In this document: one piece after another, positions 2,064 to 20,764 of the stretch
Position numbering within the stretch: the stretch's first letter is position 1
Layout of the letters: each line of letters starts with the position of its first letter
NCBI RefSeq assembly: GCF_901538265.1
Contig: NZ_LR593886.1
Span: 5,539,738 to 5,603,737, forward strand
DNA from: Gemmata massiliana
GTDB taxonomy: Bacteria; Planctomycetota; Planctomycetia; Gemmatales; Gemmataceae
DNA length: 64,000 nucleotides
Direction of reading: 5' to 3'
Made by a program: the position numbers and the translations under genes
Notes under the pieces: model-generated
Told to the model about the DNA's origin: nothing
Databases searched by the model: none
The model's input: the letters and a program-made list of their open reading frames with translations, nothing else

Positions 2064-2071
2064 GGGGATAT

Positions 2072-5000
2072 ATGCTCGATCGTGTGATCGCGTTCTCGCT
2101 CCAGAACCGGGGGCTCGTGCTCATCGCCGCTCTCGCGGTCGTTATTGGGGGCGCGTACCAACTCACCCGCACCCCGGTGGACGTGTTCCCGGACCTGAAC
2201 CGCCCCACGGTCACCATTCTCACCGAGGCGCCCGGGCTGGCCCCCGAAGAGGTCGAAGCGCTCGTCACCCGGCCACTGGAGTACGCGCTGAACGGCGCGA
2301 CCGGGGTGAAGCGGGTGCGGTCCGCGTCGGGCATCGGGCTGTCGGTCGTGTGGGTCGAGTTCGATTGGGGCACCGACGTGTACCAGGACCGTCAGGTCGT
2401 CTCGGAGCGGCTCCAACTCGTGCGCAGCCGGCTGCCGCAAGATGCGAACCCGGTGATGGCCCCGATCTCGTCGATCATGGGCGAGGTCATGCTCATCGGG
2501 TTGCGCCCGGCCGAACCGCCGAAGTCACCCGACGAGGAACTTGCCCGCGGGATGGACCTGCGCACGTTCGGAGAGTTCACCGTTCGCAACCGGCTGATCG
2601 CGATCGACGGCGTCTCCCAGGTCACGGTAATGGGCGGGCACCTCAAGCAGTACCAGGTGGTCACGTCCCCGGCGCGCCTCGCGGCCCAAAAGGTAACGCT
2701 CCAGCAACTCACCGACGCGGTGGAGAAATCCTACGTACTGGCGGGCGGCGGCGTGATGGAGCGCGGCACGCAGGAATCGCTCATCCGCATTAGCGGGCAC
2801 GCACTGAGCCTGGACCAGATCGAAGACACGCCGGTCGTCTGGCGCGACGGGCGCGCGATCCGGGTGCGCGAAGTGGCGGACGTCCGGTTCGCCGGCCCGG
2901 TGCGCCGCGGGGACGGCAGCACGCGCGTAAAAGAAGGTGACACGATCGCGGGCGGACCGTCGGTCATTCTCACCGTGCAGAAGCAGCCGGGCGCGAACAC
3001 CCTCGAACTGACCCCGAAACTGGACCGGGCGCTGGACGACCTCCAGCGCGACGCCCCGCCCGGCGTGGTCGTGGAGCGCCGGGTGTTCCGGCAGGCCGAC
3101 TTCATTCAGACCGCGATCGATAACGTCGTCGAGGCCGTTCGGGACGGGACCGTGTGGGTATTCGTGGTGCTGCTCCTGTTCCTGGCGAGCATCCGAACGA
3201 GCGTCATCACGATGACCGCGATCCCGATCTCGATCCTGGTCACGGTGCTGGTGTTCGCGTACTTCGGGGTCACCATCAACACCATGACCCTCGGCGGGAT
3301 CGCGGTCGCAGTCGGCGAGCTGGTCGACGACGCGATTGTGGACGTGGAGAACATCTTCCGTCGGTTGCGCGAGAACCGGCAGAAGCCGGTCCCGGACCCG
3401 CCGCTCGAGGTGATCTTCCGCGCCTCCAGCGAAGTACGCAACTCGATCGTTTACGCCACGCTCATCGTGTGCCTCGTCGTGATGCCGCTGTTCGCACTGT
3501 CGGGACTGGAAGGGCGGATGTTTGCGCCGCTGGGCCTCGCGTACCTCGTCGCACTCCTCGCGTCGCTGGTCGTGTCGCTGACGGTAACGCCGGTGCTGGC
3601 GTCGTTCCTGTTGGGGCGCGCAAAAGCCCTGGCGCACCCGCGCGACCCGTTTCTGCTCCGCGCGCTCAAGTGGCTCGACGCGCGCGTGCTGCGGTTCACG
3701 CTCCGCCACCCGCGTCCGATCCTGGGCGCGGCACTCCTGCTGTCCGCGGGGTCCGCGTTCGCGGTGTTCGGAATGGGTTCCGAGTTCCTGCCCCCGTTCA
3801 ACGAGGGCACCGTTACGGTAAGCCTGCAACTCGCGCCGGGCACCAGTTTGGCCGAGAGCGGGCGAATCGCGGCGCGCGCCGAGCAGTCGCTTTTGCAGAT
3901 CCCCGAAGTCGTATCGGTATCGCGGCGCACCGGGCGCGCAGAACAAGACGAGCACGCAGAGGGCGTGAACACGTCCGAACTTGACGTGCGATTAACCCCG
4001 CACGAGCGCCCGAAGCCCGGATTCGGATACGCGCTCCTGCGTGCGGTCCCCGGGTTGCACAGGTACGGCATCGAGAAGTCCGGTCGGCCGCACGATCAGG
4101 TTCTCGCGGACGTCCGCGATCGCGTAAGCGGCATCCCGAACGTGAACGCGAACGTCGGTCAACCGATCAGCCACCGGCTCGATCACGTTATGTCCGGGGT
4201 GCGCGCCCAGGTCGCAGTGAAGGTGTTCGGGCCGGACCTCCAAGAATTGCGGAACGCCGCGCAGGAGATCCGCGACGCGCTGGCCGCGATCCCCGGCGTG
4301 GTAGACCTCCAGGTCGAACCGCAGGTGGAGATTTCGCAGGTTCGGCTCCGCGTGAAGGCACTGGAAGCCGCCCGGTACGGCCTCGCCCCTGGCGACGTAG
4401 CCCGACTACTCGAAACCGCGTACAAGGGCCGCGTCGTCGCGACCGTCCTGGACGCGGAGAAATTCTTCAGTTTGGTCGTCTGGTACGACGAAGGTTCGCG
4501 GAACTCGCCTTCAGTGATCGGCCAGACCGTACTCGATACGCCGTCCGGCAAGCGGGTCGCACTCGATCAGGTCGCGGAGGTACTGGACACCACCGGCCCG
4601 AACACGCTCAACCACGAGAACGTGGCGCGCCGGATCGTGGTGTCGTGCAACGTTCAGGGGCGCAGCCTGGGTGCGGTAGTCGCCGACATCAAACGGGCCG
4701 TTCGCCCGACCGAGGAGAAACTGCGTGCGAAGGGCGCCGAGTACCGGATCGAAGACGACGGTCAGTACCGGGCACAGCAGGAAGCGAACACCCGGCTCCT
4801 CGCGCTGGGCGCGCTCGCGGTGTTCGGCGTGTTCCTTCTCCTGTGCCAGTGCCTCGATTCGTGGCGCGCAGCGCTCATGGTTTTGGGCATCAACGTCCCG
4901 CTCGCCGGGTTGGGTGCAGTGGTCGCGCTCCTCGTCATTAACCGTCCGGACCCGGCCGCGCTCCAGGGGCTACCGTGGTGGAGGTGGCCGCAGGCGTGGT

Positions 5001-5383
5001 CCGCGGCCACCACACTCTCGGTCGCGCACTGGGTCGGGTTCATCACGCTCATCGGGATCGTGAGCCGCAACGGGATCATGATGATCGCCCACTACATCCA
5101 CCTGATGCGCGAAGAGGGCGAGTCCTTCGGGGAAGCGATGATCGTTCGCGGCAGCTTGGAACGACTGGCCCCCGTGCTCATGACCGCGGGCGTCGCGGTG
5201 ATCGGCCTCGTCCCGCTCGCGCTCGGCGGTGGACAACCGGGCAAGGAGATCCTCCACCCGCTCGCGGTGGTGGTGATCGGCGGGTTACTCACCTCGACCC
5301 TCATGGACCAAATTGTGACCCCAGCCGTGTTCCTGCTGTTCGGGCGCAAGGTGTATGTCCCGTCGCCTACTGATGCGAAATGA
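2072..5383 (+). CDS. RND family efflux transporter, CzcA/CusA-like
   Basis: Inner-membrane proton-driven pump of 1103 residues, the usual size for heavy-metal (HME) RND transporters. Visible are an N-terminal membrane anchor (about 9-28), a first periplasmic domain, a transmembrane bundle at about 350-520 that includes the TM4 charged stretch GELVDDAIVDVEN near residue 415, a second periplasmic domain, and a C-terminal bundle from about 910 with a MMIAHYIHLMREEGESFGEA loop typical of the family. ATG follows the adaptor stop by 8 nt with GGGGG as ribosome site. The paired Asp residues in TM4 are the expected proton relay. The CzcA/CusA assignment rests on overall similarity; the metal ligands were not identified, so the substrate is open. 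Confidence 0.9.
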   Translation: MLDRVIAFSLQNRGLVLIAALAVVIGGAYQLTRTPVDVFPDLNRPTVTILTEAPGLAPEEVEALVTRPLEYALNGATGVKRVRSASGIGLSVVWVEFDWGTDVYQDRQVVSERLQLVRSRLPQDANPVMAPISSIMGEVMLIGLRPAEPPKSPDEELARGMDLRTFGEFTVRNRLIAIDGVSQVTVMGGHLKQYQVVTSPARLAAQKVTLQQLTDAVEKSYVLAGGGVMERGTQESLIRISGHALSLDQIEDTPVVWRDGRAIRVREVADVRFAGPVRRGDGSTRVKEGDTIAGGPSVILTVQKQPGANTLELTPKLDRALDDLQRDAPPGVVVERRVFRQADFIQTAIDNVVEAVRDGTVWVFVVLLLFLASIRTSVITMTAIPISILVTVLVFAYFGVTINTMTLGGIAVAVGELVDDAIVDVENIFRRLRENRQKPVPDPPLEVIFRASSEVRNSIVYATLIVCLVVMPLFALSGLEGRMFAPLGLAYLVALLASLVVSLTVTPVLASFLLGRAKALAHPRDPFLLRALKWLDARVLRFTLRHPRPILGAALLLSAGSAFAVFGMGSEFLPPFNEGTVTVSLQLAPGTSLAESGRIAARAEQSLLQIPEVVSVSRRTGRAEQDEHAEGVNTSELDVRLTPHERPKPGFGYALLRAVPGLHRYGIEKSGRPHDQVLADVRDRVSGIPNVNANVGQPISHRLDHVMSGVRAQVAVKVFGPDLQELRNAAQEIRDALAAIPGVVDLQVEPQVEISQVRLRVKALEAARYGLAPGDVARLLETAYKGRVVATVLDAEKFFSLVVWYDEGSRNSPSVIGQTVLDTPSGKRVALDQVAEVLDTTGPNTLNHENVARRIVVSCNVQGRSLGAVVADIKRAVRPTEEKLRAKGAEYRIEDDGQYRAQQEANTRLLALGALAVFGVFLLLCQCLDSWRAALMVLGINVPLAGLGAVVALLVINRPDPAALQGLPWWRWPQAWSAATTLSVAHWVGFITLIGIVSRNGIMMIAHYIHLMREEGESFGEAMIVRGSLERLAPVLMTAGVAVIGLVPLALGGGQPGKEILHPLAVVVIGGLLTSTLMDQIVTPAVFLLFGRKVYVPSPTDAK

Positions 5384-9060: not shown

Positions 9061-9164
9061 ATTAGCCCGGTACTTGTTACGTTCGTCCCCCTCGTCCGTC
9101 TGTGTATACTGGTCCCCATTGGTCCGCAATCACTTGCGCCGCTTGCTCCGAGTGTGAGGCCGCC

Positions 9165-12100
9165 ATGCGTTCCGTCCTTCGACCCCTCGTGTTGATGCTC
9201 CTCGCCGGCGCGCTTGCGGTGCCGCTCGTCGCCGCGGAGCCGGCCGGCCCCACGGCCGACGAGGTCAAGGCGCTCCGCGAGAAGTTCCAGACCGAGCGCG
9301 AGCAGGCCGTCAAAGCCAAGTTCCCGGTGGACACACTCGCGAAGGCCGACGACCTCGTGAAGCGCTCCGAGGAGGCCGCGAAGGGGGACAACTTCAAGGC
9401 CGCGTTACGGCACTTGCGCGACGCGCGCTGGCAGTTGCCGTACCTGCCCCCTGGGTTACCGCAACACGTCACGCGCGTTTTGGGCGAGTCCCGGATGCGC
9501 CACGCGGACCGCGTGAACGCGCTCGCGTACAGCCCGGACGGGCGGTTCGTGGCGTCCGCGAGCCGCGACTTCATCGTCAAGGTTTGGGATCTCGGCAACG
9601 GGCGCGAGGTCGCGACCTACCGGGGCCACGTCGACCAGCCCGACGACCCGACCCGCGCGAGCACAAACGTCCTCGGGGCCACGGACGTCGTGTTCCACCC
9701 GAAGGAGAACGTGATCGTGTCGTCGAGCGGCAACCAGGTCCACACCTGGGAACCGACCACGGGCAAGCCCATCAAAACGCTCGTGAACCTCGGCAAGACG
9801 GACAAGCCCATCAAGGCGCTCGCGTTCAGCCCGGACGGGAAGCAACTCGCGATCGGTTCCGAGGACGGCGTTCTGCGGGTGATCGAGTTCGGCACCGCAA
9901 AAGCGGTCTACACCAGCCCGTCGCGCAACGTCCGCATCGAGCGCGTCGCGTTCAGCCCGAACGGGAAACTGGTCGCGATCGGCGACAGCAACTCGCAAAT
10001 CGGGGTGTACGTGCCGGGGGGTAAGGGGAACCAGCTCGCGATGGGCGTGCAGGGCGTGGACACGGGCGGGGTGCTGGGCGTCGCGTTCAGCAGCGACGGC
10101 GCGAGCGTGTTCTCCTGCGGACACGACGGCAAGGTGCGCCTCACCGCCGGCCCGGGACCGGACGGGGAGAGCGTCGGAAACACCGCGACCAAGCTCCGCG
10201 AGTTCGTCGGGCACTCGGGCACGGTGACCGGTCTCGCCGTGACCACCGACGGCAAGTTCCTCGTGACCAGCGGCGACGACAAGACCGTGCGCGTGTGGGA
10301 CGTGACCGCGGGCAAGCAGCTCCGGTCGTTCCAGGGGCACATGACGAAGGCCACGGCGGTGGCCGTGCGCGGCGACGGCAAGCAGGTCGCGTCCGGGTCC
10401 GAGGACGGGGCCGTGCGCGTGTGGGATCTGAACGCCGTGGACGACCACCGGGCCATGAAGGAGTCCGCGGAGTCGCTGTGGGCGGTCGCGATCGCCCCGA
10501 ACGGGAAGCGCGTGGCCGCGGCCGGCGCGGACAAGAAGATCCGCGTGTACGATCCAGAAACCGGCAAACTCGAAGTGGCACTCGACGCGGGCGCCGCGAT
10601 GACCGCGCTCGCGTTCCTGCCGGACAGCAATTTGCTCGCCGCAGCCGGGGGCGAAAAGGTCATAAAGGTCTGGGACGTCAGCGCCAAGAAGGTCGCGAAG
10701 GAACTGCCCGGGCACAACCTGGCGGTGCTCGCGGTGGCGGCGTCCGAGGACGGGAACTTGATCGTATCCGGCTCGGCCGACGCGACCGTCCGCGGGTTCG
10801 ACCCGGCGGGCAAAGAAGTATGGAAATGGGCGTCGCGAAAAGCCGCGTGTGCCGTTTCGATTCGTAAGGGGGGCAAGCACGCCGCGGTCGGGATCGCGGA
10901 CGGCGGACTGGCCGTTATCGATATCTCGGGGGGTACGCCCAAGGAACTGTCCGCGCAAAGCGCGCACATCGCCGGGACCACCTGCGTCTGCTACAGCCCG
11001 GACGGGAGCCGGCTCGCCAGCGTCGGCGGCGACGGGGCGCTGCGCATCTGGTCCGTCGGCGACAACGGCTCCCTAGCTCAACTCGTGAAGTTCGAGGGCC
11101 AGGTCGTGCCGAACAGCGCGACCGGGTTCTCCCCGCTGTCCACCGTCTGCTTCAGCCCGGACGGGCGTTTCGTCGCCGCCGCGGGTGCCGACGGCGTGGT
11201 GCGAGTGTGGGACGTGCAGACCAAAACCGAGGTCCGCGGACTACGCGGGCACACGGACTGGGTGACGTCGGTCGCGTTCAGCCCGGACGGGCGGTTCCTC
11301 GCGTCGGGCGCCTCAGAGAAAGACAACACGCTCCGGGTGTTCGAGCTTCCCCCGCTCGACAGCGCGAGCGCGGCCGGTGGGCACATGCTCGCGGTGAACG
11401 CGGTGGCCGTCAGCCCCAACGGGAAGTTCGCGGCCACAGCGGGCACGGACCAGACGATCAAGGTGTGGGACATCGCGACCGGCAAGGAAGTGGCCACGCT
11501 CGTGGGTAACGCTGACACCCCGTTCGCGCTCGCGTTCCTCGGCAATGACGGCGTGGTGATGGGCGGGCGCGTCCCCACCGGCACCGTCGGCCGGTTGCAC
11601 TTCTGGGGCACCACCCCGCCGCGCGCGGGCGAAGCGGTGCCGACCGGCGAAGTGTACACGGTGGTGGCCACGCCCGACGGCTCAAAGGTCGGCGCGTGGG
11701 CGTCCCGGCAGTCCGTCGGCGACAAGAAGAACAACGCCTACGAGGTCTACGACGCGAAGGGCAAGTTGCTCACGTCCGTTCCCGACCGGGGCCGCGACGT
11801 CCGGTCCGCAACGTTCACCCCCGACCTCGCGTGGGTGGTGGCCGGTGACGACGCTGGTGCAGTCCGCATCTTCGACATGGCCACCAAGGAGCGCATCAAG
11901 GGCGACTGGGCGCTGTTCCAACAGAGCTTCGCGGACCTGGGCGTCACTCCGGACAAAAAGTACCTCGTGGGGGCAGACGCTGAAGGATCGGTGAAGGTCG
12001 GCGATATCGAGAAGCGGGAGACGATCGCGGACGGCAAGGCCCATAAGACCGGTGTGCGGGCGCTAATCGTGTCGCCGACCGGCAAGACCTTCGCGACCAT

Positions 12101-12278
12101 CAGCAACGACCGCGAAATCAAGGTTTGGTCGCTGACCGAGTTCAAAGACAAACAGATCACCGAACTGCGATCGTGGACCGTACCGGTCGCGATCAACGGC
12201 GCGACCTACACGCCCGACGGCAAGTCCGTCGTTACAGCTAACGCCGACGGCACCGCCTACGTCCTCGAACTGCCGTAA
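9165..12278 (+). CDS. Secreted giant WD40-repeat protein
   Basis: A 1037-residue protein starting at the ATG at 9165, which gives a clean signal peptide (MRSVLRPLVLMLLAGALAVP, cleavage near VAA/EP). An earlier in-frame start would precede the signal with junk sequence. After a short charged helical region (about 30-90) come roughly 19 WD40-type blades. Each carries SPDGxxxASxxxDxxVxVWD or a degraded form of it, so the chain probably folds as two or three beta-propellers. No enzymatic domain is visible. Such proteins act as interaction scaffolds; partners are unknown. It is followed by a strong hairpin and then the type VII-like genes on the same strand, but the terminator argues against one operon. 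Confidence 0.9.
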   Translation: MRSVLRPLVLMLLAGALAVPLVAAEPAGPTADEVKALREKFQTEREQAVKAKFPVDTLAKADDLVKRSEEAAKGDNFKAALRHLRDARWQLPYLPPGLPQHVTRVLGESRMRHADRVNALAYSPDGRFVASASRDFIVKVWDLGNGREVATYRGHVDQPDDPTRASTNVLGATDVVFHPKENVIVSSSGNQVHTWEPTTGKPIKTLVNLGKTDKPIKALAFSPDGKQLAIGSEDGVLRVIEFGTAKAVYTSPSRNVRIERVAFSPNGKLVAIGDSNSQIGVYVPGGKGNQLAMGVQGVDTGGVLGVAFSSDGASVFSCGHDGKVRLTAGPGPDGESVGNTATKLREFVGHSGTVTGLAVTTDGKFLVTSGDDKTVRVWDVTAGKQLRSFQGHMTKATAVAVRGDGKQVASGSEDGAVRVWDLNAVDDHRAMKESAESLWAVAIAPNGKRVAAAGADKKIRVYDPETGKLEVALDAGAAMTALAFLPDSNLLAAAGGEKVIKVWDVSAKKVAKELPGHNLAVLAVAASEDGNLIVSGSADATVRGFDPAGKEVWKWASRKAACAVSIRKGGKHAAVGIADGGLAVIDISGGTPKELSAQSAHIAGTTCVCYSPDGSRLASVGGDGALRIWSVGDNGSLAQLVKFEGQVVPNSATGFSPLSTVCFSPDGRFVAAAGADGVVRVWDVQTKTEVRGLRGHTDWVTSVAFSPDGRFLASGASEKDNTLRVFELPPLDSASAAGGHMLAVNAVAVSPNGKFAATAGTDQTIKVWDIATGKEVATLVGNADTPFALAFLGNDGVVMGGRVPTGTVGRLHFWGTTPPRAGEAVPTGEVYTVVATPDGSKVGAWASRQSVGDKKNNAYEVYDAKGKLLTSVPDRGRDVRSATFTPDLAWVVAGDDAGAVRIFDMATKERIKGDWALFQQSFADLGVTPDKKYLVGADAEGSVKVGDIEKRETIADGKAHKTGVRALIVSPTGKTFATISNDREIKVWSLTEFKDKQITELRSWTVPVAINGATYTPDGKSVVTANADGTAYVLELP

Positions 12279-12394: not shown

Positions 12395-12667
12395 ATGTCG
12401 CAGGCCATAGTGGACCCTGCCGAAGTGCGGCGGTTCGCCAGCAACTTGAAGCGGTTCAACGCCGATATGCAGTCCGCACTCGCCGGGTTGCACGGCCAAC
12501 TCACGACCCTCGGCGACAGTTGGCGCGACCAGGAGCACGACCGCTTCCGGCAGGAATTTGAAGCCACGATGCTCGTCCTGGAGCGCTTCTTGGAAGTGTC
12601 CGGTGAGCACATCCCGTTCCTGCTCCGCAAAGCCGAGCGGATCGAAGAGTACCTGTCTCAACGGTAG
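12395..12667 (+). CDS. WXG100-like protein of a type VII-like locus
   Basis: A 90-residue, all-helical protein. The ATG at 12395 is preceded 8 nt upstream by AAGGAG (12381-12386), which fixes the start. Two amphipathic helices are separated by a turn carrying W43-R44-D45 in the context GDSWRDQEHDRF. This is the position of the W-x-G turn in WXG100 (ESAT-6-like) proteins, here W-x-D. The length and the helix-turn-helix layout match that superfamily. It heads a cluster that ends with a triple-domain FtsK/SpoIIIE ATPase, the hallmark pair of type VII secretion. It is probably a substrate or a structural partner of the ATPase. There is no clear C-terminal YxxxD/E signal, although E-R-I-E-E-Y-L near the end is suggestive. 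Confidence 0.7.
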   Translation: MSQAIVDPAEVRRFASNLKRFNADMQSALAGLHGQLTTLGDSWRDQEHDRFRQEFEATMLVLERFLEVSGEHIPFLLRKAERIEEYLSQR

Positions 12668-12678
12668 TCTTGAAACAA

Positions 12679-12760
12679 GTCGTAACGTCGAAAGTCATCA
12701 GGTCGAAGACCTCTCACTCGTGACTTTCGGACCTTTCGATTCGACGACCTTCGATTCGAC
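12679..12760. repeat. Degenerate copy of the 36-bp hairpin (family D)
   Basis: The stretch starting GTCGTAACGTCGAAAGTCAT at 12679 and running through GTCGAAGACCTCTC is nearly identical to the left arm of the perfect hairpin at 43314-43398 (GTCGTGAGGTCGAAAGTCAT and GTCGAAGACTTCTC). The right arm is decayed but recognisable (GTGACTTTCG, GACGACCTTCG). It separates the first two genes of the type VII-like cluster. Confidence 0.6.
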
Positions 12761-12788
12761 CCGCCCGATTTTCGACGGAAGCCGACCC

Positions 12789-13472
12789 ATGTCCGCAGAC
12801 GTCCGCTCCATCGCCGCAGTTATCGACTGGCACGCGGCCCTCACCAATTACGGCGACGGGCTGAGTGAGGCGATGGCCGGCGTGGACCTCGAGATCCGCC
12901 GCGCGTTCGACTGGCTCGGCGAGCAACTCGCGCGCTGGCAGCGGGCCGTGCGCGACTGCGAAGAAGAGGTCGTGCGCGCGAAGGCGGAACTGACCCAGCG
13001 CAAGTTCCCCACCTGGGACGGGCGCGACCCGGACTGCACGGTGCAAGAGAAGGCCCTGCGCCTCGCGAAAGCGCGACAGGAGCACGCGGAAGAGAAGGTC
13101 GAAACCGTGCGCCAGTGGATCGGGCGGCTGCCCAAAATGATCGACGAAGTGTTCACGGGACCGTCGCGCCGACTCAAGTCGATCCTCGAAGCCGATCTAC
13201 CCAATTCTCTGGTCGAGTTGACGCGGCGCATCAGAGCACTGGAGAGCTACGCCGGACTACGCCCGGACTACGCCCCGGGACCGAGCGCGTCGGGAGTACC
13301 TACCCCCCCGGCCTCCCCCCCTAAAGGGAAGGGGGAAGAAGAATCAAGCACAGAAGACGCGGTCCAGTCGGCAGTTTTAAGCCCCTCTCCACTTAGGGGA
13401 GGGGTTGGGGAGGGGTTGGAGAAACAACCGCCCCCTCCCCCAGCGGCAGAGGGCACGCGGGAGGGGGCTTAG
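12789..13472 (+). CDS. Coiled-coil protein of the type VII-like locus with repeat-derived C-terminal tail
   Basis: A 227-residue protein from the ATG at 12789. Upstream in-frame sequence is the degenerate hairpin, not protein-like. Residues 1-165 are predicted helical and charged, with a central W-D-G (in FPTWDGRDPD) and no membrane segment or signal. From about residue 170 the composition changes sharply to Pro/Gly/Ser. The tail contains PTPPASPPKGKGEE and LSPSPLRGGVGEG, which is the translation of a GC-rich dispersed element (13297-13470), so the original gene probably ended earlier. The TAG stop abuts the ATG of the next gene. The position between WXG100-like genes suggests a partner or chaperone of the secretion ATPase. 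The function is unknown. Confidence 0.7.
   Translation: MSADVRSIAAVIDWHAALTNYGDGLSEAMAGVDLEIRRAFDWLGEQLARWQRAVRDCEEEVVRAKAELTQRKFPTWDGRDPDCTVQEKALRLAKARQEHAEEKVETVRQWIGRLPKMIDEVFTGPSRRLKSILEADLPNSLVELTRRIRALESYAGLRPDYAPGPSASGVPTPPASPPKGKGEEESSTEDAVQSAVLSPSPLRGGVGEGLEKQPPPPPAAEGTREGA
13297..13470. repeat. GC-rich dispersed element fused to a gene 3' end
   Basis: C-run and G-run tract with an internal hairpin (13382-13390 with 13396-13404, one G-U pair) and the G-rich repeats AGGGGAGGGG and TTGGGGAGGGG. It encodes the proline-rich tail of the preceding gene and includes the Shine-Dalgarno sequence GGGAGGGGG (13459-13467) of the next one. A related but distinct element lies inside the 3' end of the apbE-like gene at 42270-42346. 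Confidence 0.65.
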
Positions 13473-13694
13473 ATGCGATTCGGCGCTACACGGAGCCAGA
13501 TTTACGACGCGCAAAAGACCGCCCGCGCGAAGTGGAACGAGACTTTCACTTCGTGGGACGACGCGGTCCATCAGGAGCACGAGGAGCGCGTCGTCGAACC
13601 GCTCGACCGCGCCGTGAGCGACGCGCTGCGGGCCATCGACCAGCTCGCCGTCCTATTCACCCAGATCCGCCAGGAGTGCGAGTTCGGGTCGTAA
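13473..13694 (+). CDS. Second short WXG100-like protein
   Basis: A 73-residue helical protein. The ATG follows directly after the TAG of the upstream gene, with GGGAGGGGG 5 nt before it. It carries S27-W28-D29-D30-x-x-H33, the same S-W-x-D-x-x-H pattern as the first protein of the cluster (S42-W43-R44-D45-x-x-H48), followed by an amphipathic helix ending in QIRQECEFGS. It is shorter than typical WXG100 proteins because the first helix is only about 25 residues. It could form a heterodimer with the 90-residue protein, by analogy with EsxA/EsxB pairs; that is inference. Confidence 0.65.
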   Translation: MRFGATRSQIYDAQKTARAKWNETFTSWDDAVHQEHEERVVEPLDRAVSDALRAIDQLAVLFTQIRQECEFGS

Positions 13695-13760
13695 GTCTCC
13701 CGGGTTCTCATTTCCGCGTTTATCGTGCGCACGATCTCTTCGCCCGATTACGGTGCCGCC

Positions 13761-16700
13761 ATGTCCGACAACCTGTTCGATCGCCAACGGACCGCCCTCG
13801 CGCGCCTTTCCGACGCCGCCCGCGCGCGGGCCGGGGCCGAAGCCGAACTCGCCGCTGCGTTCCAGACCACGAGCGAAAAAGCCGAGCGCGAGGCAACACG
13901 CGCGCGAAAGGCCCACGCCGCGGCACTCGAAAAAGAACTCGGCGAGCTGAGTGCCGAACACACCGCCACACAAGAACGCTTGGCGAGAACGTTCACCGCC
14001 GAACAGGTCACCAACGAGCGCAACCGCGACGACCGCCGGAAGCTGACCACGGACCGGTTCAATACCGCGCAAAAGAACGGCCAGACCAAGTACGACGAAC
14101 AGATCTGGAGCCACAACACGCTGTACGAAGCCGGCGAGAAGACCGCGAAGGAGCAACTCGACACGCTCCAGCGCAAGGCCGCCGCCGGCCGCGAACAGGC
14201 GGACGCGCTCTGGGCCGAGGCCGAACCGCTGCTCAAGCGCGGTCGCGTGCCGCGCGCGGAAGTCGCGTTCACGGGCGATCTCCCCGAGCCGACGGACGAT
14301 GACCCGATCAAGCGGATGAACAAGTGGCTCGCCGCCGCCGAAGAGAGCATCACGAAGCTGCGCGCCAGTCGCTTGCCCGGCCTGGGCCGCTTCAGTGGGT
14401 TACTCTTTTTCCTCGCGCTCGCGACCGGCATCGGTGCGAGCACATTCTCGTTCCTCCCCGCAGACACCGCCCTTCCCGCCACCGCAGGCATCGGGGTTGT
14501 GCTCGGACTGGCGCTGTGGCTGCTGGTCCGCTCGCTCGGTCGGCGATCGACTGTTCGGCAGGGCAAGGCGGTCGCGGAACGTCTCGCTGAATCCACTCGC
14601 TCGTGCCAGTTGCTGTCCGATTACGCCTCCTCCGAGTTCGTGGCCGAGATCAAGCGATTGCGTGACAAACACGCTCGCGAGCGGCAGAAAACGGACGAAT
14701 ACTACCTCCCGTTGTTGGCCGGCCAAAAGAAGCAGTTCGAGGAGGAACTCGTCCGGATCGATTCGGACTTCGCGATCGGGGCCGAGCGCATCCGGCGCAA
14801 CCGGGCGAACGAAACGCGCGCGGCCGACGAAACCCACGCCACGAAAAAGGCCGAAGTCGAGAACCGCCTCGGTGCGGAACTGAGTGCCGCGGAGCAGTCG
14901 TTTAACGAGAAGATGGCCACCGCGACCGCCGTCCGCGACGGGGCGTGGAACGCGATGGCGGACCGCTGGAACGCCACCGCCGGTGAGGTCGCGGAAACGT
15001 TCGGCGAACTGCGAACCGCGGGCACATCGACCTTTCCCGCGTGGGACGAGTTCACGCCCTCTCGCGCGCTCGCGGCGCAAGTTCCCGCCGGGGTACGGTT
15101 CGGCGAAATTAACGTCGATCTGAACGCCATCACCGACGCGGTCCCCACCGACGAGCGCCTCGCGCCGCCCGCGGCCCTGTACGGCGCGGTCCCAGCGTAC
15201 CTCCCCTTCCCCGATAAATGTTCGGTCCTCCTCCGGTGCCGCGACGACGGGCGAGCCGTCGGTGTGGCGGCACTCCAAGCGCTGATGCTCCGGTTCCTTA
15301 CGGGGCTGCCACCGGGCAAGGTGCGGTTCACCATCGTCGATCCCGTCAGCCTCGGCGACAACTTCGCCGCATTCATGCACCTCGCGGACCACGACGAGAA
15401 GCTGGTCACGTCGCAAATCTGGACCGAACCGCGCGACATCGAACAGCGCCTCACGGACCTCACAGACCACACCGCGAGCGTGATCCAGAAGTACCTGCGT
15501 AACCAGTACAAGTCGATCGAGGAGTACAACAAGGCCGCGGGCGAAGTGGCCGAACCGTACCGCGTGCTAGTGGTCGCGAACTTCCCGAACAACTTCACCC
15601 CGGAAGCCGCGAAGCGCCTCGTGAGCCTCGCGAACAGCGGCCCGTCGTGCGGCGTCTGCGTACTCGTGACCGCGGACACAAAGGCGACGATGCCGCGCGA
15701 CTTCAATCTCGCCGATCTAGAAGCGGCCAGCTACACGCTCGCGTGGAAAGAAGGCCGATTCGTCCCGAAAGACCCGGTGCTCGCGCCGTTCCCGCCCGCG
15801 CTCGACAAGCCGCCGGAACCCGCGACCGTGGCCGCGCTCGTTCAGCGCATCGGCAAGGCGAGCAAGGAAGCCGTCCGCGTGGAAGTGCCGTTCGAGTACA
15901 TCGCGCCGAAGCCCGGCGACGTGTGGACCGGCAGTGCCGCGAAGGGCTTTGAAGTGGCTGTTGGGCGCGCAGGGGCGACGCGGAAGCAACTCTTCTCGCT
16001 CGGGCGCGGCACCGCACAGCACGCGGTCATCGCGGGGAAGACCGGGTCCGGTAAGTCCACGTTGCTCCACGCACTCATCACGAACCTCGCACTGACATAC
16101 AGCCCGGACGAAGCAGAACTGTACCTCATCGACTTCAAAGAAGGTGTCGAGTTCCAGTGGTACGCGACCTACCGCCTGCCGCACGCGCGCGTCGTCGCGA
16201 TCCAGAGCGAGCGCGAGTTCGGCTTAAGTGTGCTCCAACGACTCGATGGCATTCTGCGAGAGCGCGGTGAGAAATTCCGCGACACGGGCGTGAACGATCT
16301 CGCCGGTTACCGCGCCGCAAAGCCGGACGAGAAAACACCCCGCATCCTGCTCGTAATCGACGAGTTCCAGGCGTTTTTCACCGAAGACGACAAGCTCGCC
16401 CAGGAAGCCTCACTCTTGCTCGACCGGCTCGTGCGCCAGGGCCGGGCGTTCGGGCTACACGTGCTACTCGGGTCGCAAACGCTCGGTGGTGCGTACTCGC
16501 TCGCCCGCAGCACCATCGACCAAATGGCCGTCCGAGTCGCGCTCCAATGTTCGGATGCGGACGCACAACTCATTCTCAGCAAGGACAACACCGCGGCCCG
16601 GTTGCTCTCGCGCCCGGGCGAGGCGATCTACAACGACCAGAACGGGCTGGTAGAAGGGAACGACCCGTTCCAGGTGGTGTGGCTCGCGGAAGAGAAGCGC

Positions 16701-17639
16701 GAACAGGTACTCGAAGACCTACACAAGCGCGCCGGCGACCGCTGGCCGGCACCGCTCGTGTTCAGCGGGAACACGTCCGCCGTACTCTCGAACAATCGCA
16801 CCCTGTCGAAGCAACTCGCGGAGCCCGCAGCAATCAAAGTTCCCACGGCGTGGCTCGGCGACCCGGTCGCGATCAAGGAACCGACCGCCGCGCTGTTCCG
16901 CGCTCACGGCGGAGCGAATCTGCTGATGATCGGGCAAAGTGAAGACGCCGCCCGCGCGCTGTTCGTGTCCTCGGTGTTGAGTCTCGCGGCACAGTTGGTG
17001 AAACCGACCCCGTCTCCCATCTTCACTATTCTCGACGGTACGCCTGACGACGCGGACGAAGCCGAGTACCTCCGCAAGTTTGCGGAACGGGTGCCGAACG
17101 CGACCTGCCCGAACCGGATGGGGCTCCCCGCAGCGCTCGCAGAACTCACAAGCGAAATCGAGCGCCGACAAAAGGGCGAGGCAGAACGAACCCCGCGGTT
17201 CGTGTTGATCTTCGGCATCCACCGCCTCCGCGAACTGCGTAAAGCGGACGACGATTTCAGCTTCGGGCGCCGGGGAGAGCGCGAACCGACGCCCGCGGAG
17301 CGGCTCGCGACGATCCTGCGCGACGGCCCGCTCGCCGGGGTCCACGCGATCGTGTGGTGCGATTCGCTCGTGAACCTGAATCGCGCGTTCGACCGACCGC
17401 TGCTGCGCGAGTTCGCGATGCGCGTGCTGTTCCAGATGAGTGCGACCGATTCCAGCACGCTCATGGACGCCCCTACCGCGTCGAAACTCGGCCGGCACCG
17501 GGCACTGTACCTGCAGGACGAACAAGAGCGCCCGGAGAAATTCCGCCCCTACGGGCTGCCCACGGACGAGTGGCTGACCGCGGCGTGCGACGCGCTCCGC
17601 GCGCGACTCACGTTGCAGCCGGAACCGGTTGGGGTGTAA
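13761..17639 (+). CDS. FtsK/SpoIIIE-type ATPase, EccC/EssC-like (type VII-like secretion)
   Basis: A 1292-residue protein; the start is the ATG at 13761 (MSDNLFDRQR). Residues 1-200 are a charged coiled-coil domain, followed by two membrane segments at about 212-232 and 240-258 and a second coiled-coil to about 420. Three RecA-like domains follow. The first (about 480-700) lacks a P-loop. The second has a full Walker A, G759-K-T-G-S-G-K-S766, and a Walker B ending L-L-V-I-D-E near 867. The third (about 1040-1290) is degenerate. Three tandem FtsK domains with only one intact resemble the EccC/EssC motor of type VII secretion, not the DNA translocase FtsK, and no gamma DNA-reading domain is visible. 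N-terminal forkhead-associated domains, as in EssC, are absent. It is encoded with two WXG100-like proteins. The exported substrates are unknown. Confidence 0.8.
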   Translation: MSDNLFDRQRTALARLSDAARARAGAEAELAAAFQTTSEKAEREATRARKAHAAALEKELGELSAEHTATQERLARTFTAEQVTNERNRDDRRKLTTDRFNTAQKNGQTKYDEQIWSHNTLYEAGEKTAKEQLDTLQRKAAAGREQADALWAEAEPLLKRGRVPRAEVAFTGDLPEPTDDDPIKRMNKWLAAAEESITKLRASRLPGLGRFSGLLFFLALATGIGASTFSFLPADTALPATAGIGVVLGLALWLLVRSLGRRSTVRQGKAVAERLAESTRSCQLLSDYASSEFVAEIKRLRDKHARERQKTDEYYLPLLAGQKKQFEEELVRIDSDFAIGAERIRRNRANETRAADETHATKKAEVENRLGAELSAAEQSFNEKMATATAVRDGAWNAMADRWNATAGEVAETFGELRTAGTSTFPAWDEFTPSRALAAQVPAGVRFGEINVDLNAITDAVPTDERLAPPAALYGAVPAYLPFPDKCSVLLRCRDDGRAVGVAALQALMLRFLTGLPPGKVRFTIVDPVSLGDNFAAFMHLADHDEKLVTSQIWTEPRDIEQRLTDLTDHTASVIQKYLRNQYKSIEEYNKAAGEVAEPYRVLVVANFPNNFTPEAAKRLVSLANSGPSCGVCVLVTADTKATMPRDFNLADLEAASYTLAWKEGRFVPKDPVLAPFPPALDKPPEPATVAALVQRIGKASKEAVRVEVPFEYIAPKPGDVWTGSAAKGFEVAVGRAGATRKQLFSLGRGTAQHAVIAGKTGSGKSTLLHALITNLALTYSPDEAELYLIDFKEGVEFQWYATYRLPHARVVAIQSEREFGLSVLQRLDGILRERGEKFRDTGVNDLAGYRAAKPDEKTPRILLVIDEFQAFFTEDDKLAQEASLLLDRLVRQGRAFGLHVLLGSQTLGGAYSLARSTIDQMAVRVALQCSDADAQLILSKDNTAARLLSRPGEAIYNDQNGLVEGNDPFQVVWLAEEKREQVLEDLHKRAGDRWPAPLVFSGNTSAVLSNNRTLSKQLAEPAAIKVPTAWLGDPVAIKEPTAALFRAHGGANLLMIGQSEDAARALFVSSVLSLAAQLVKPTPSPIFTILDGTPDDADEAEYLRKFAERVPNATCPNRMGLPAALAELTSEIERRQKGEAERTPRFVLIFGIHRLRELRKADDDFSFGRRGEREPTPAERLATILRDGPLAGVHAIVWCDSLVNLNRAFDRPLLREFAMRVLFQMSATDSSTLMDAPTASKLGRHRALYLQDEQERPEKFRPYGLPTDEWLTAACDALRARLTLQPEPVGV

Positions 17640-17740: not shown

Positions 17741-18898
17741 ATGCTTAAAACTCAACCCCTCCGTATCGCGGTCATCGGTGCGGGGCCGATCGGAATCGAA
17801 GCGGCGCTGTACGCGAAAGCGTGCGGGTTCACGGTCACGGTGTTCGACCGCGGGCCGATCGGCGAGCACGTGCGGCGCTGGGGCCACGCGCGAATGTTCA
17901 CGCCCTTCGGCACGAACGCGACAACGCTCGGGCTCACCGAAGTGCGGCGCGAAAAAGGGTCTCGGTCGATCCCCGCGGAAGCAGATATTCTCACCGGCCG
18001 CGAGTTCATCGAAGCCTACCTGCGCCCGCTCGCGGAATCCGAAGCGCTCCTCGAATCCCTCAACCTCGAAGCGGCCGTGCTCCAGGTCGGGCGCGCGGCC
18101 AGCGTGAAGAAATCAGAAGTCGCGGACCGGCTGCCGTTCCGATTGCTCGTGCGCGACAGCGCGGGCACGGAGCGCATCGAAACGGCCGACGTCGTACTCG
18201 ACTGTACCGGCACGTACATCACGCCGTACCGCCTCGGCGACGGCAACATCCCCGCCGTGGGCGAACTGGCCGCGCGCCAGCACATCGCCTGGGGGCTGGA
18301 AGACATTCTGGGCGAAAAACGCTCACACTACGCGAACAAGAGCATCATTCTTGTGGGCGACGGCTACTCCGCGGCATCGGCCATTTGCTCCCTCGCGACG
18401 CTCGCGGAGGAAGCCAACGACACCTGGGTGTTCTGGCTCACGCGCGGGCCGCGCGGGCAACCGCTCCCGCGCATGCCCAACGACCCGCTGAAGGAACGCG
18501 ACCGCCTCGCGACCAAAGCGAATTCGCTCGCGACCCGGTGCGACGGCCACCTGGAGTTCCACCCGCAAACCGTCCTCGACGAAGTCGTCTGCCACGGACC
18601 GGATCAGGGGTTCCGCGTGGCCGGGCGGAGTAACGGCAAACCGGTGTCGTGGGAAGTGGAGCGCGTGATCGCCAACGTCGGCTACCGGGCCGATTTGCGC
18701 ATCAGTGACGGGCTGCGCGTGAATGATCCGATCGGCCTTCCCGAAACCGGCGAGCCGAACTACTTCATCCTTGGCGCGAAGAGTTACGGGCGCAACTCCG
18801 GTTTCCTCCTGCGCGACGGTTTCGACCAGATCCGCCGCGTGTTTGCCGCTCTCACGGGCAACGCGCGCCTCGACCACTACGCGAAGAAGGCCGCGTGA
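17741..18898 (+). CDS. FAD-dependent oxidoreductase (thioredoxin-reductase-like fold)
   Basis: A 385-residue flavoprotein. The N-terminal dinucleotide motif is VIGAGPIGIEAA (residues 8-19), and a second nucleotide-binding motif ILVGDGYSAAS is near residue 203. The layout therefore matches pyridine-nucleotide-dependent flavin oxidoreductases with FAD and NAD(P) domains. No redox-active CxxC is visible, so it is not a classical thioredoxin reductase. A C-terminal NVGYR...FILGAKSYGRNSGF segment matches the FAD-contacting end. It is followed after 93 nt by a cyclase-like gene on the same strand, which suggests a shared pathway but does not prove it. The substrate is unknown. Confidence 0.75.
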   Translation: MLKTQPLRIAVIGAGPIGIEAALYAKACGFTVTVFDRGPIGEHVRRWGHARMFTPFGTNATTLGLTEVRREKGSRSIPAEADILTGREFIEAYLRPLAESEALLESLNLEAAVLQVGRAASVKKSEVADRLPFRLLVRDSAGTERIETADVVLDCTGTYITPYRLGDGNIPAVGELAARQHIAWGLEDILGEKRSHYANKSIILVGDGYSAASAICSLATLAEEANDTWVFWLTRGPRGQPLPRMPNDPLKERDRLATKANSLATRCDGHLEFHPQTVLDEVVCHGPDQGFRVAGRSNGKPVSWEVERVIANVGYRADLRISDGLRVNDPIGLPETGEPNYFILGAKSYGRNSGFLLRDGFDQIRRVFAALTGNARLDHYAKKAA

Positions 18899-18991
18899 TT
18901 GCACGCCCCGGTTGCCCTTGCGACCGGGGGCTCCGATCCGCTACATTTCAGTGCCCTTCCGCACCGACACGGCAGGAAAGGATTCCGCACC

Positions 18992-20764
18992 GTGAAGCAT
19001 CCGCATTTTCTCACTGACAACTCCCTCTCCGAGCGCGACGCGGCCTGGTTCGAGGAACTGGCCGGAACCGTTGTGCGCGGGCGCGAAGCACTATTCGCGT
19101 GCCAGGAACCGGACGGGCACTGGCTCGGCGAACGCGACGACGATCAGAACCTCGGTGCCGAACTGATTCTGCTCCTCGCGTTTCTCGGGCGCGCGGACGA
19201 CCCGCGCGTCCCGTTCGCCGCCAATTACCTCCTCAAGCACCAGCACGCGACCGGTTCGTGGGGCGACGTCGGCACGTCGGTACGGGCGTATTTCGCACTG
19301 AAGATCGCCGGCCACGCAGAAGACGAACCGCACATGCGGCGCGCGGCCGATGCGATCCGCACACTCGGGGGAGCAGTAGCGAGCGATTCGCTCACGCGAT
19401 TCTACCTCGCGATGCTCGGCCAACTGCCCCACTCTGCGTGCCCGTCCGTGCCAGTGGAAGTGTTGCTCTTACCGAAGTGGCTCCGCGGTATCGGCGCGAC
19501 GCCCGCGTGGGAGCGCCCGATGCGCGTTGCACTCGGTGTGATCTGCGCACACGAGCCGGTCACCACCCTGCCCGAATCGATGCAGGTCCGCGAATTGTTC
19601 GTCCGGTCCCCCGAAATGCGTTCTGAGCGACGCAGATTCGGGCCGATCCGCCGACGCGCAGTCCGTGCTGCGGCGAATTGGATTCGCGCGCGATACTCGA
19701 TCGACGGTCCCAGCATGAATTTTCGCACGCTGGCACTGAACGCCGCCGTGCTCACGTGCCTGGGAGTGCCTGCTGAAGATAGCGAAATGCGCTGGGTGCT
19801 GAAGCAACTCGGCGCGCTCTGTCTGACCACCGGAGATGAACTCCGGGTGCGCCCATACGAATCCCCCGTGCGTGACACGGCACTATCGCTCAGCGCGACG
19901 TCGAGCGTAAGTACGGCGAGCAGCTCGGCGCGCGGGGAATCGGCCGCGCAATGGTTGCTGGATTTCGAGACTCGGAATGCTGGGTTCACGGACACCGAAA
20001 GTACGGCTCTGGCTCTCGTCGCGCTCGCGCGGAGCGGGCACGCTCTACGTGAAACGTGCAGCGGCGCGGTGTGTCGCGCGATCGATTTCCTGCTCGCGAT
20101 GCAGAACCGCGACGGCGGTTGGTCCGCGTTCGACCGCAGTCTGAAAGCCGACCCAAGTTGCCCCGCGCTGACCGCGTGTGTCCTCGAAGCGCTCAGCCAC
20201 TTCGGGTTCCGCACCGGGCAACCGCCGGTCGACACAGCGGTGACGTTCCTTCTCGGTTATCAGGAAGTGAGTGGCAACTGGCGCACGCGCTGGGGCACGA
20301 ACCCGCTCGCGACAACGAGTCAGGTGCTCGTCGGACTGCACGCGACCGGGTTCGACACGTTCGCGATCCCGATGCGCCGGGCCGTGCGGTGGGTGAAGGA
20401 GTCCCAGAACGCGGACGGCAGTTGGGGCGACGCGACCGCGTCCGAAACTGCCTGGGCGCTGCTCGCGCTGCTCGCGGCCAATGAGGGCGAAAGTGCCGAA
20501 ATGCGTGCGGGAGCAGAGTTCCTCGTCGGCACGCAGCACGCGGACGGCGCATGGACCGAAGATGCCTTCACAGGCTCGGACTTCGCTCCCGGGAGCAAGC
20601 TCAAGAGCGAACTGTACCCGATGTGTTTCCCGGTGATGGCACTCGACCGCTATCTCACCGACCGCACCCGGCCGGCAGAAGCCCCGAAAGTGCTCACGCG
20701 AACCGACCTCGGGCACCAAACGAATGGCCCGAAGGTTTACCGGCACACGCTCGCGGAAATGTAG
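18992..20764 (+). CDS. Squalene-hopene-cyclase-like protein with altered DxDD motif
   Basis: A 590-residue protein. The start is taken as the GTG at 18992, preceded by AAAGGA; upstream in-frame sequence is not protein-like. It has the two-barrel alpha-toroid pattern and several QW motifs, for example QNRDGGWSAFD, QNADGSWGD (472-480) and QHADGAWTED. At the place where hopene cyclases carry the proton-donating D-x-D-D-T-A it has D334-T-E336-S337-T-A. The central general acid is Glu rather than Asp and its neighbour is Ser. It therefore belongs to the family by fold but may be inactive or have another substrate. It is about 40-100 residues shorter than typical hopene cyclases (630-700). The flavoprotein upstream is probably co-transcribed. 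There are no membrane segments beyond the amphipathic surface usual for monotopic cyclases. Confidence 0.75.
   Translation: MKHPHFLTDNSLSERDAAWFEELAGTVVRGREALFACQEPDGHWLGERDDDQNLGAELILLLAFLGRADDPRVPFAANYLLKHQHATGSWGDVGTSVRAYFALKIAGHAEDEPHMRRAADAIRTLGGAVASDSLTRFYLAMLGQLPHSACPSVPVEVLLLPKWLRGIGATPAWERPMRVALGVICAHEPVTTLPESMQVRELFVRSPEMRSERRRFGPIRRRAVRAAANWIRARYSIDGPSMNFRTLALNAAVLTCLGVPAEDSEMRWVLKQLGALCLTTGDELRVRPYESPVRDTALSLSATSSVSTASSSARGESAAQWLLDFETRNAGFTDTESTALALVALARSGHALRETCSGAVCRAIDFLLAMQNRDGGWSAFDRSLKADPSCPALTACVLEALSHFGFRTGQPPVDTAVTFLLGYQEVSGNWRTRWGTNPLATTSQVLVGLHATGFDTFAIPMRRAVRWVKESQNADGSWGDATASETAWALLALLAANEGESAEMRAGAEFLVGTQHADGAWTEDAFTGSDFAPGSKLKSELYPMCFPVMALDRYLTDRTRPAEAPKVLTRTDLGHQTNGPKVYRHTLAEM

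Follow-up and report, generated by a model that had tools for sequence, protein, structure and literature searches.

The analysed window, a stretch of 64,000 nucleotides of Gemmata massiliana (Planctomycetota; assembly GCF_901538265.1, contig NZ_LR593886.1, positions 5,539,738 to 5,603,737), carries four genes in a row on the + strand at positions 12395-17639, here called g1, g2, g3 and the ATPase gene. With modest confidence, we regard this module as a chromosomally fixed export machine of a minimal type VII-like kind, from a separate lineage with a W-x-D signature, in which a membrane-anchored ATPase would use ATP to export small helical proteins together with g2. Homology shows the parts to be a WXG100-family protein (g1), a small protein related to it (g3) and an ATPase that is EccC/EssC-like and has a single active domain; by prediction, g2 would form a long helical hairpin, and the membrane segments of the ATPase would lie between coiled coils. 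An earlier note on this DNA had described the four genes as a minimal type VII (ESX/WXG100)-like secretion locus, perhaps a stripped-down export motor or a non-secretory relative. Their order on one strand is borne out by translation and recurs across the phylum, whereas the module is better placed in a separate lineage that had already been noted (PMC3482391, Table 1 note 6; PMC11090510) than among ESX loci that lost parts. The features, given in window positions with lengths in amino acids (aa), are as follows.

12395-12667, + strand: g1, WXG100-family helical protein, 90 aa (PF06013 match)
12521-12529, + strand: W-R-D motif of g1 (W43-R-D45), expected hairpin bend (g1 alignment; likeness to HP0062)
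12789-13472, + strand: g2, predicted coiled-coil protein, 227 aa, two-helix hairpin and low-complexity tail (model)
13473-13694, + strand: g3, second small helical protein, 73 aa (W-x-D conservation, profile match to g1)
13554-13562, + strand: W-D-D motif of g3 (W28-D-D30; g3 alignment)
13761-17639, + strand: FtsK/SpoIIIE-family ATPase with three FtsK-like domains, 1292 aa (PF01580; EccC fold match)
14400-14456, + strand: predicted membrane segment 1, aa 214-232 (hydropathy only)
14472-14528, + strand: predicted membrane segment 2, aa 238-256 (hydropathy only)
15090-15881, + strand: ATPase domain 1, about aa 444-707, without Walker A (model elements 352-613, offset +92)
15948-16766, + strand: ATPase domain 2, catalytic, about aa 730-1002 (PF01580 at 730-907; 4nh0 match at 749-939)
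16035-16058, + strand: Walker A GKTGSGKS, aa 759-766 (motif, homologue alignment)
16347-16364, + strand: Walker B, ending in D867-E868 (homologue alignment)
16845-17621, + strand: ATPase domain 3, about aa 1029-1287, without Walker A (model)

The intergenic gaps are 121 base pairs (bp) between g1 and g2, 0 bp between g2 and g3, and 66 bp between g3 and the ATPase gene. The listed translation of g2 has two codons ahead of the ATG, and for genes outside the window the start codon was picked in this analysis.

The ATPase matches PF01580 in Pfam at 111.6 bits. Its sole Walker A pattern is GKTGSGKS at 759-766, and the stretch VIDEF spans D867-E868; D867, E868 and the Walker A residues G, K and S are invariant in 36/36 homologues. 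The model (aa 93-1292, built with 60 sequences; mean predicted local distance difference test score, pLDDT, 84.2; predicted template modelling score, pTM, 0.57) contains three FtsK-like domains with Walker motifs in the middle one only, the layout that had been read from the sequence at the outset. The top eight Foldseek matches of this model are all EccC or EssC, with 4nh0 first (E 1.7e-24), and an FtsK motor appears at E 2.3e-9 at best. In VIA-align, 721 residues of EccC 4nh0 align across the three domains (Z 22.3) with a root-mean-square deviation (rmsd) of 14.5, and domain placement therefore differs between the model and this structure. Domain 1 aligns with the EccC5 DUF domain 8rin (Z 15.3, rmsd 3.9, 226 residues aligned, model 323-611), and its counterpart may be either the EccC DUF or the first EccC ATPase domain; domain 3 matches EccCb1-D2 9jv8 (Z 22.2) and EssC D3 6tv1 (Z 17.1). 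On domain 2, the EccC/EssC models of NCBIfam score E 3e-29 to 2e-26 versus 1e-3 for FtsK, in matches that fall far short of the model cut-offs. Matches to apolipoprotein A-I structures in the PDB were set aside as coiled-coil likeness.

Two membrane segments had also been proposed, and hydropathy places both (214-232, 238-256) ahead of domain 1. By the same measure, 77 of 83 distinct ATPase homologues have at least two hydrophobic stretches; 4 have a single one and 2 lack any, of which one protein is N-terminally short. A third stretch lies inside domain 1 in 8 of the 84 ATPase rows scanned (the G. massiliana sequence counted twice). The protein thus has the features of a membrane-anchored, EccC/EssC-like multi-domain FtsK ATPase, with the membrane pair predicted from hydropathy only.

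The small protein g1 matches the Pfam family WXG100 (PF06013) at 31.7 bits (cut-off 27.3), as do 24/24 of its homologues at E<=0.1; on NCBIfam TIGR03930 it reaches 26.9 bits, below the cut-off of 44.85. A WXG100 partner therefore accompanies the EccC/EssC-like ATPase, and the suspected relation to the core pair of type VII secretion holds. Among solved structures, the best match of the g1 profile is H. pylori HP0062 (E 4.6e-13), ahead of B. anthracis EsxB and S. aureus EsxA. Like g1, HP0062 carries W-R-D, and according to PMC3397514 it is a hairpin dimer whose bend holds this motif; the putative hairpin of g1 rests on homology to these three solved proteins. The W-x-D motif is present in 24/24 g1 homologues and in all 51 g1 proteins read from 53 further loci, and likewise in 24/24 g3 homologues and all 64 g3 proteins read from 65 further loci, the two collections possibly having species in common.

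For the g3 of the window, no Pfam family scored above cut-off. Among its family, 7/24 members match PF06013 at E<=1 (best 7.3e-4), and the g3 profile matches EsxA at 5e-4. Profiles of g1 and g3 align in hhalign with a probability of 93%, and none of 60 column shuffles or 60 heptad-block shuffles reaches the score that they give without gap-rich columns (39.1; maximum 24.7 when shuffled); to judge by this comparison, g1 and g3 are related. In 21/24 g3 homologues, one of the 12 C-terminal residues is a cysteine. A PADLOC "Cyclase" match to g3 at 15.7 bits was set aside as chance.

The third partner, g2, had been noted as a coiled-coil protein, in agreement with a model that shows helices 8-72 and 84-157 as a long two-helix hairpin, with pLDDT above 90 in most blocks. 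No Pfam family scored above cut-off for the g2 of the window, and no toxin or nuclease domain was matched. The median length of 83 g2 proteins is 186 aa, with only three longer than 250 aa, which therefore leaves scant room for a toxin domain in most of them. The g1 profile aligns with the g2 N-terminus at a probability of 56% and a score of 29.8 (maximum shuffled 23.1), and profile comparison showed no relation between g2 and g3. With the joint g2-g3 model, Foldseek gave no match at E<=0.001, and VIA-align gave unrelated coiled coils only (Z up to 10.7, the level of a common arrangement). The tail of g2 (window 13270-13469) is of low complexity, proline-rich and encoded by repeat-like G/C runs, and looks like a repeat that got into the coding end; a close relative (locus L069) has a tail of similar kind. 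Two Phycisphaerales g2 proteins (L093:7584-8645 and L146:4890-5960) carry a C-terminal Imm33-like domain of the immunity type (PF24719; 54.2 and 32.9 bits); no toxin families were found among six L093 neighbours scanned at E<=1e-5.

The module is not peculiar to G. massiliana. In a scan of 294 Planctomycetota genomes (ATPase at E<=1e-20, g1 at E<=1e-5), the ATPase was found in 41 and g1 in 40, both together in 40, the ATPase alone in 1 and g1 alone in 0. The assembly of the sole genome with the ATPase and without g1 (G219) is in fragments, with 880 contigs. The Fisher value of this co-occurrence is 1e-48, which overstates independence, the genomes being related. A g2 gene is present in 39 of the 41 ATPase genomes, all except G219 and G107; a g2 match at 21.9 bits in G073, a genome without the ATPase, covers a short piece of a 1235-codon frame and was dismissed as chance. 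There is one g1 match per genome in 39/40, the fortieth (G232) having an additional 27-residue piece. The ATPase scan scored two candidate places per genome, so that its copy number is complete for G. massiliana only. Genome G076 has two ATPase genes (contigs C126 and C138) and a single match each for g1 and g2; no small partner gene lies beside the second ATPase (locus L063).

Conservation of gene order outside the genome of origin had been set beforehand as a test. Loci were searched for g1, g2 and g3 with seed-only profiles (iterative profiles merged all three). The genome-contig loci compared are the best 80 of 470 relatives, three of them with titles that give no phylum. An upstream stretch of 2 kb or more before the ATPase is available in 56 of the 80, and 49 of these 56 show the order g1-g2-g3-ATPase on the same strand; of the other seven, four have none of the small genes, two have g2-g3 only and one has g3 only. 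The 24 loci with a short upstream part contain all three genes in 4 cases, g2-g3 in 5, g3 in 4 and none in 11. In a set of 36 loci around the ATPase, some of them cut by contig ends, g1 was found in 24, g2 in 23 and g3 in 24. A whole-genome search for g1 in ten genomes, of which nine lack the gene next to the ATPase, found it in 10/10. The two genes are truly apart on one contig in G024, G105 and G152, with g2 at a third place in G024 and G105, and ATPase, g1 and g2 are also unlinked in G087, G137 and G194; in G076, the separation of ATPase and g1 may be due to a contig break. Of 12 regions around g1, five have g2 and g3 adjoining (G076, G152, G251, G124, G280), one has g2 only (G216) and six have neither. 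The module is thus kept together across many planctomycetes, and its scattered genes are still retained in several genomes. We reject a chance neighbourhood on the recurring order and the genome-by-genome co-occurrence.

In the ATPase tree (36 rows), 5/6 families form single clades and the sixth needs two changes; over all family labels 5 changes suffice, where shuffled labels need 17.7 on average. The tree follows families, and inheritance within Planctomycetota is therefore mainly vertical. A scan of viral contigs with g1 gave 72 pattern matches and 0 relatives. In other phyla, which were reached via plasmids only, relatives do occur on mobile replicons: g1 finds three plasmids among 72,556 at E<=0.01 (Caballeronia, Helicobacter, Rhodococcus), and a search with part of the ATPase gives 350 plasmid records at E<=1e-5, with matches that span more than 80% of its length in two. 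Six plasmid regions were looked at, one of them from Rhizorhabdus, and the ATPases of the other five were examined, namely those of the three plasmids above, of a Deinococcus plasmid and of a second Rhodococcus plasmid. A W-x-D protein adjoins the ATPase in 4/5, none being recognised on the second Rhodococcus plasmid. Three of the ATPases show a single match each to the Walker A and Walker B patterns; the Walker A pattern is absent from the Deinococcus protein and the Walker B pattern from the second Rhodococcus one. On the Caballeronia plasmid, VWA genes flank the group, which is accompanied by CARF, phosphatase and kinase genes, surroundings like those of Type III-A CoCoNuTs (PMC11090510). 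The Helicobacter plasmid has, where g2 would stand, a protein ending in a WHH nuclease (PF14414, 44.6 bits), followed by an SMI1/KNR4 protein (29.1 bits), by sequence a putative toxin-immunity arrangement. The Rhodococcus protein at this place matches the g2 profile (probability 82).

Such surroundings, together with the Imm33-like domain fused to the two Phycisphaerales g2 proteins, would fit a mobile toxin-delivery or defence island of the kind of the Type III-A CoCoNuT extensions and the H. pylori islands, and operons of this sort have been called mobile in PMC11090510 (after an earlier study) and in PMC3482391 ("appear to be"). We nevertheless regard this explanation of the module as improbable, and within Planctomycetota reject it on the ATPase tree and the viral scan. 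The single g1 in 39/40 genomes (with a short extra fragment in the fortieth) and the toxin-free g2 of the window also speak against it, with rare defence neighbours still conceivable since the neighbour clusters were not annotated by family. On a Rhodococcus pseudokoreensis plasmid (L184, 5193-11181), Hsp70-family, TPR and GrpE genes lie directly 5' of an FtsK-family gene; a DnaK homologue is listed with the H. pylori WXG100 cluster (PMC4978471), and this ATPase family may have a connection to Hsp70.

Several results weigh against an export machine of the type VII kind. The highest Z values in VIA-align belong to FtsK DNA motors over domain 2 (2iut, Z 25.5, rmsd 2.8, 260 aligned), a fit that would be expected if the protein were a DNA translocase standing in for FtsK in the division plan of this organism. 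We hold this to be very improbable and reject it: the same genome encodes elsewhere a conventional FtsK that has both the alpha and the gamma domain, no gamma-domain was matched by Pfam in the module ATPase, and the NCBIfam scores of domain 2 favour EccC/EssC over FtsK. A model of the defence ATPase SspH scores 95.5 bits on domain 2 versus 101.8 for EccC, and the family is therefore not settled by domain 2 alone; the type VII assignment leans on the three tandem ATPase domains together with the WXG100 partner. The plasmid relatives likewise complicate matters, with a membrane pair seen by hydropathy in 0/5 of their ATPases; a different mechanism has been inferred for such ATPases without membrane helices (PMC11090510). 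The g2 profile has no match to the Caballeronia, Helicobacter and Deinococcus proteins at the place of g2 (3 of 4), and any common descent of g2 with these therefore rests on position.

The small proteins also depart from the type VII norm. The expected short helical proteins with a tryptophan turn are present in that both g1 and g3 carry the tryptophan and g1 is, by homology, a putative hairpin. Every g1 and g3 read has W-x-D in place of W-x-G, which is given as "almost 100% conserved" in WXG100 proteins (PMC3935865), and g3 was modelled as a single long helix, at lower confidence (no homologues were supplied, the job being the same as for g2), which therefore speaks only weakly against a g3 hairpin. 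The YxxxD/E export signal, with W-x-G a feature of the T7SSa and T7SSb classes of type VII secretion system (T7SS), occurs in the last 25 residues of g1 in 0/24 homologues and 0/51 further proteins, and anywhere in g3 in 0/24; residue Y86 of g1 is invariant, and the residue at +4 is R in 18, G in 4, H in 1 and K in 1. The pattern is found somewhere in g2 in 6/23. The earlier note had described EccB/EccD/EssA-like membrane parts, a protease and FHA domains as missing. No EssB/YukC match was obtained in the G. massiliana genome at E<=0.1 (the B. subtilis control matched, and one control exceeded the cut-off), and the best YukD/EsaB ubiquitin-like candidate has 18.5 bits (cut-off 27; B. subtilis control above it) and lies 3.1 Mb off. 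A search for EccB gave no match in this genome and equally none in any control genome, so that EccB may or may not be present. No outer-membrane or periplasmic partner was found for the module, and among the best 80 of 470 loci no other gene family keeps a fixed place beside it, as judged from neighbour clusters made with a simple frame caller; the second largest cluster is probably an antisense frame of g2, and the other larger ones occur on both sides and strands.

These absences leave room for a non-secretory scaffold or sensor, in which the ATPase would export nothing and instead remodel a helical assembly of g1, g2 and g3 on the inner side of the membrane. Consistent with this are the lack of a fixed neighbour family, the lack of a YxxxD/E signal in g1, the very long hairpin of g2 with its weak look-alikes among many coiled coils, and the fact that a toxin domain would not fit most g2 proteins. 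We consider it rather unlikely, in view of the pairing of WXG100 proteins with EccC/EssC-like ATPases as shared components of type VII export (PMC11217815) and of the relative with a nuclease at the place of g2 and an immunity-type neighbour.

The core of this finding is already known in outline. An ATPase with three domains, the middle one active, and a WXG partner was noted in 2012, with planctomycetes listed (PMC3482391, Table 1 note 6), and the module shares this layout, with three FtsK-like domains and Walker motifs in the middle only. Unlike the systems as described there, it has vertical-looking inheritance, two small W proteins, a hairpin partner, a predicted membrane pair and W-x-D; mobility, a trait of that description, is not seen within Planctomycetota; relatives of the module elsewhere are found on plasmids. 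The EssC-like extension of Type III-A CoCoNuTs likewise has three domains with only the central one active, a long N-terminal coiled coil, two WXG100-like proteins and one coiled-coil protein (PMC11090510). Its further traits (no membrane helices, VWA flanks, a coiled coil fused to a nuclease) are not seen in the window, where the module is flanked by genes for a WD40-repeat protein and a flavin oxidoreductase and g2 has no nuclease match. In H. pylori, WxG and FtsK genes have been called a minimal set of a type VII system (PMC4978471); this HP0062/HP0066 "WXG100 secretion system" contains the best solved relative of g1 and an FtsK-family gene (PMC4978471, PMC3397514) and, unlike the module, has a DnaK homologue and an HNH/EndoVII nuclease in neighbouring clusters (PMC4978471). 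The T7SS subtypes a to j cover Actinomycetota and Bacillota (PMC11217815). T7SSa, T7SSb and T7SSc-j have an EccC/EssC-like ATPase and a WXG100 partner as here, and the T7SSg ATPase is also without FHA; the module differs in having no EssB match, W-x-D instead of W-x-G, a single catalytic domain and another phylum as host. Type VII function in Gram-negatives is described as unconfirmed (PMC10765036). In the literature searched, outside of which most subscription papers fall, no experimental work on the function of such a module was found, and, to the extent of these searches, the new points are vertical inheritance, the membrane anchor, the W-x-D signature, the presence of three partners and a g2 that is mostly free of toxins.

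The gene for the WD40-repeat protein (window 9102-12278, 14 WD40 stretches) lies on the same strand and stops 116 bp 5' of g1; it is no recurrent neighbour of the module in the loci compared. On the 3' side (17741-20764), the flavin oxidoreductase gene is accompanied by a squalene-hopene-cyclase-like gene, and similar genes are found there in a few close relatives. Further upstream (3-5383), the window contains an RND-type efflux pair, an HlyD-type membrane-fusion protein followed by an AcrB-family pump.

In the export machine that we favour, the ATPase would be anchored in the inner membrane by its membrane pair and would act as a hexamer, on which g1, g3 and g2 may dock as helical dimers or bundles. 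ATP hydrolysis in domain 2 would then push these proteins, or g2 and whatever trails its hairpin, across the membrane. On the plasmids a longer protein stands at the place of g2, one such protein having a terminal nuclease and an immunity-type gene behind it; by analogy, g2 probably occupies a cargo or adaptor slot. The shortness of g2 in most planctomycetes, with no room for a toxin domain, points to a house role in the envelope and not to killing. It is tempting to speculate that Planctomycetota took over a type VII-like translocase as a toxin-free, vertically inherited envelope machine with four obligate parts, whose three helical proteins, two of the W-x-D kind and one elongated hairpin, would themselves be what is exported or assembled, a view offered as a tentative possibility. 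The W-x-D signature, present also in HP0062 and beside 4/5 plasmid ATPases, provides a simple handle for finding this lineage. The module is compact and chromosomal and, if export is indeed its function, the smallest type VII-like machine could consist of one membrane ATPase and three helical proteins.

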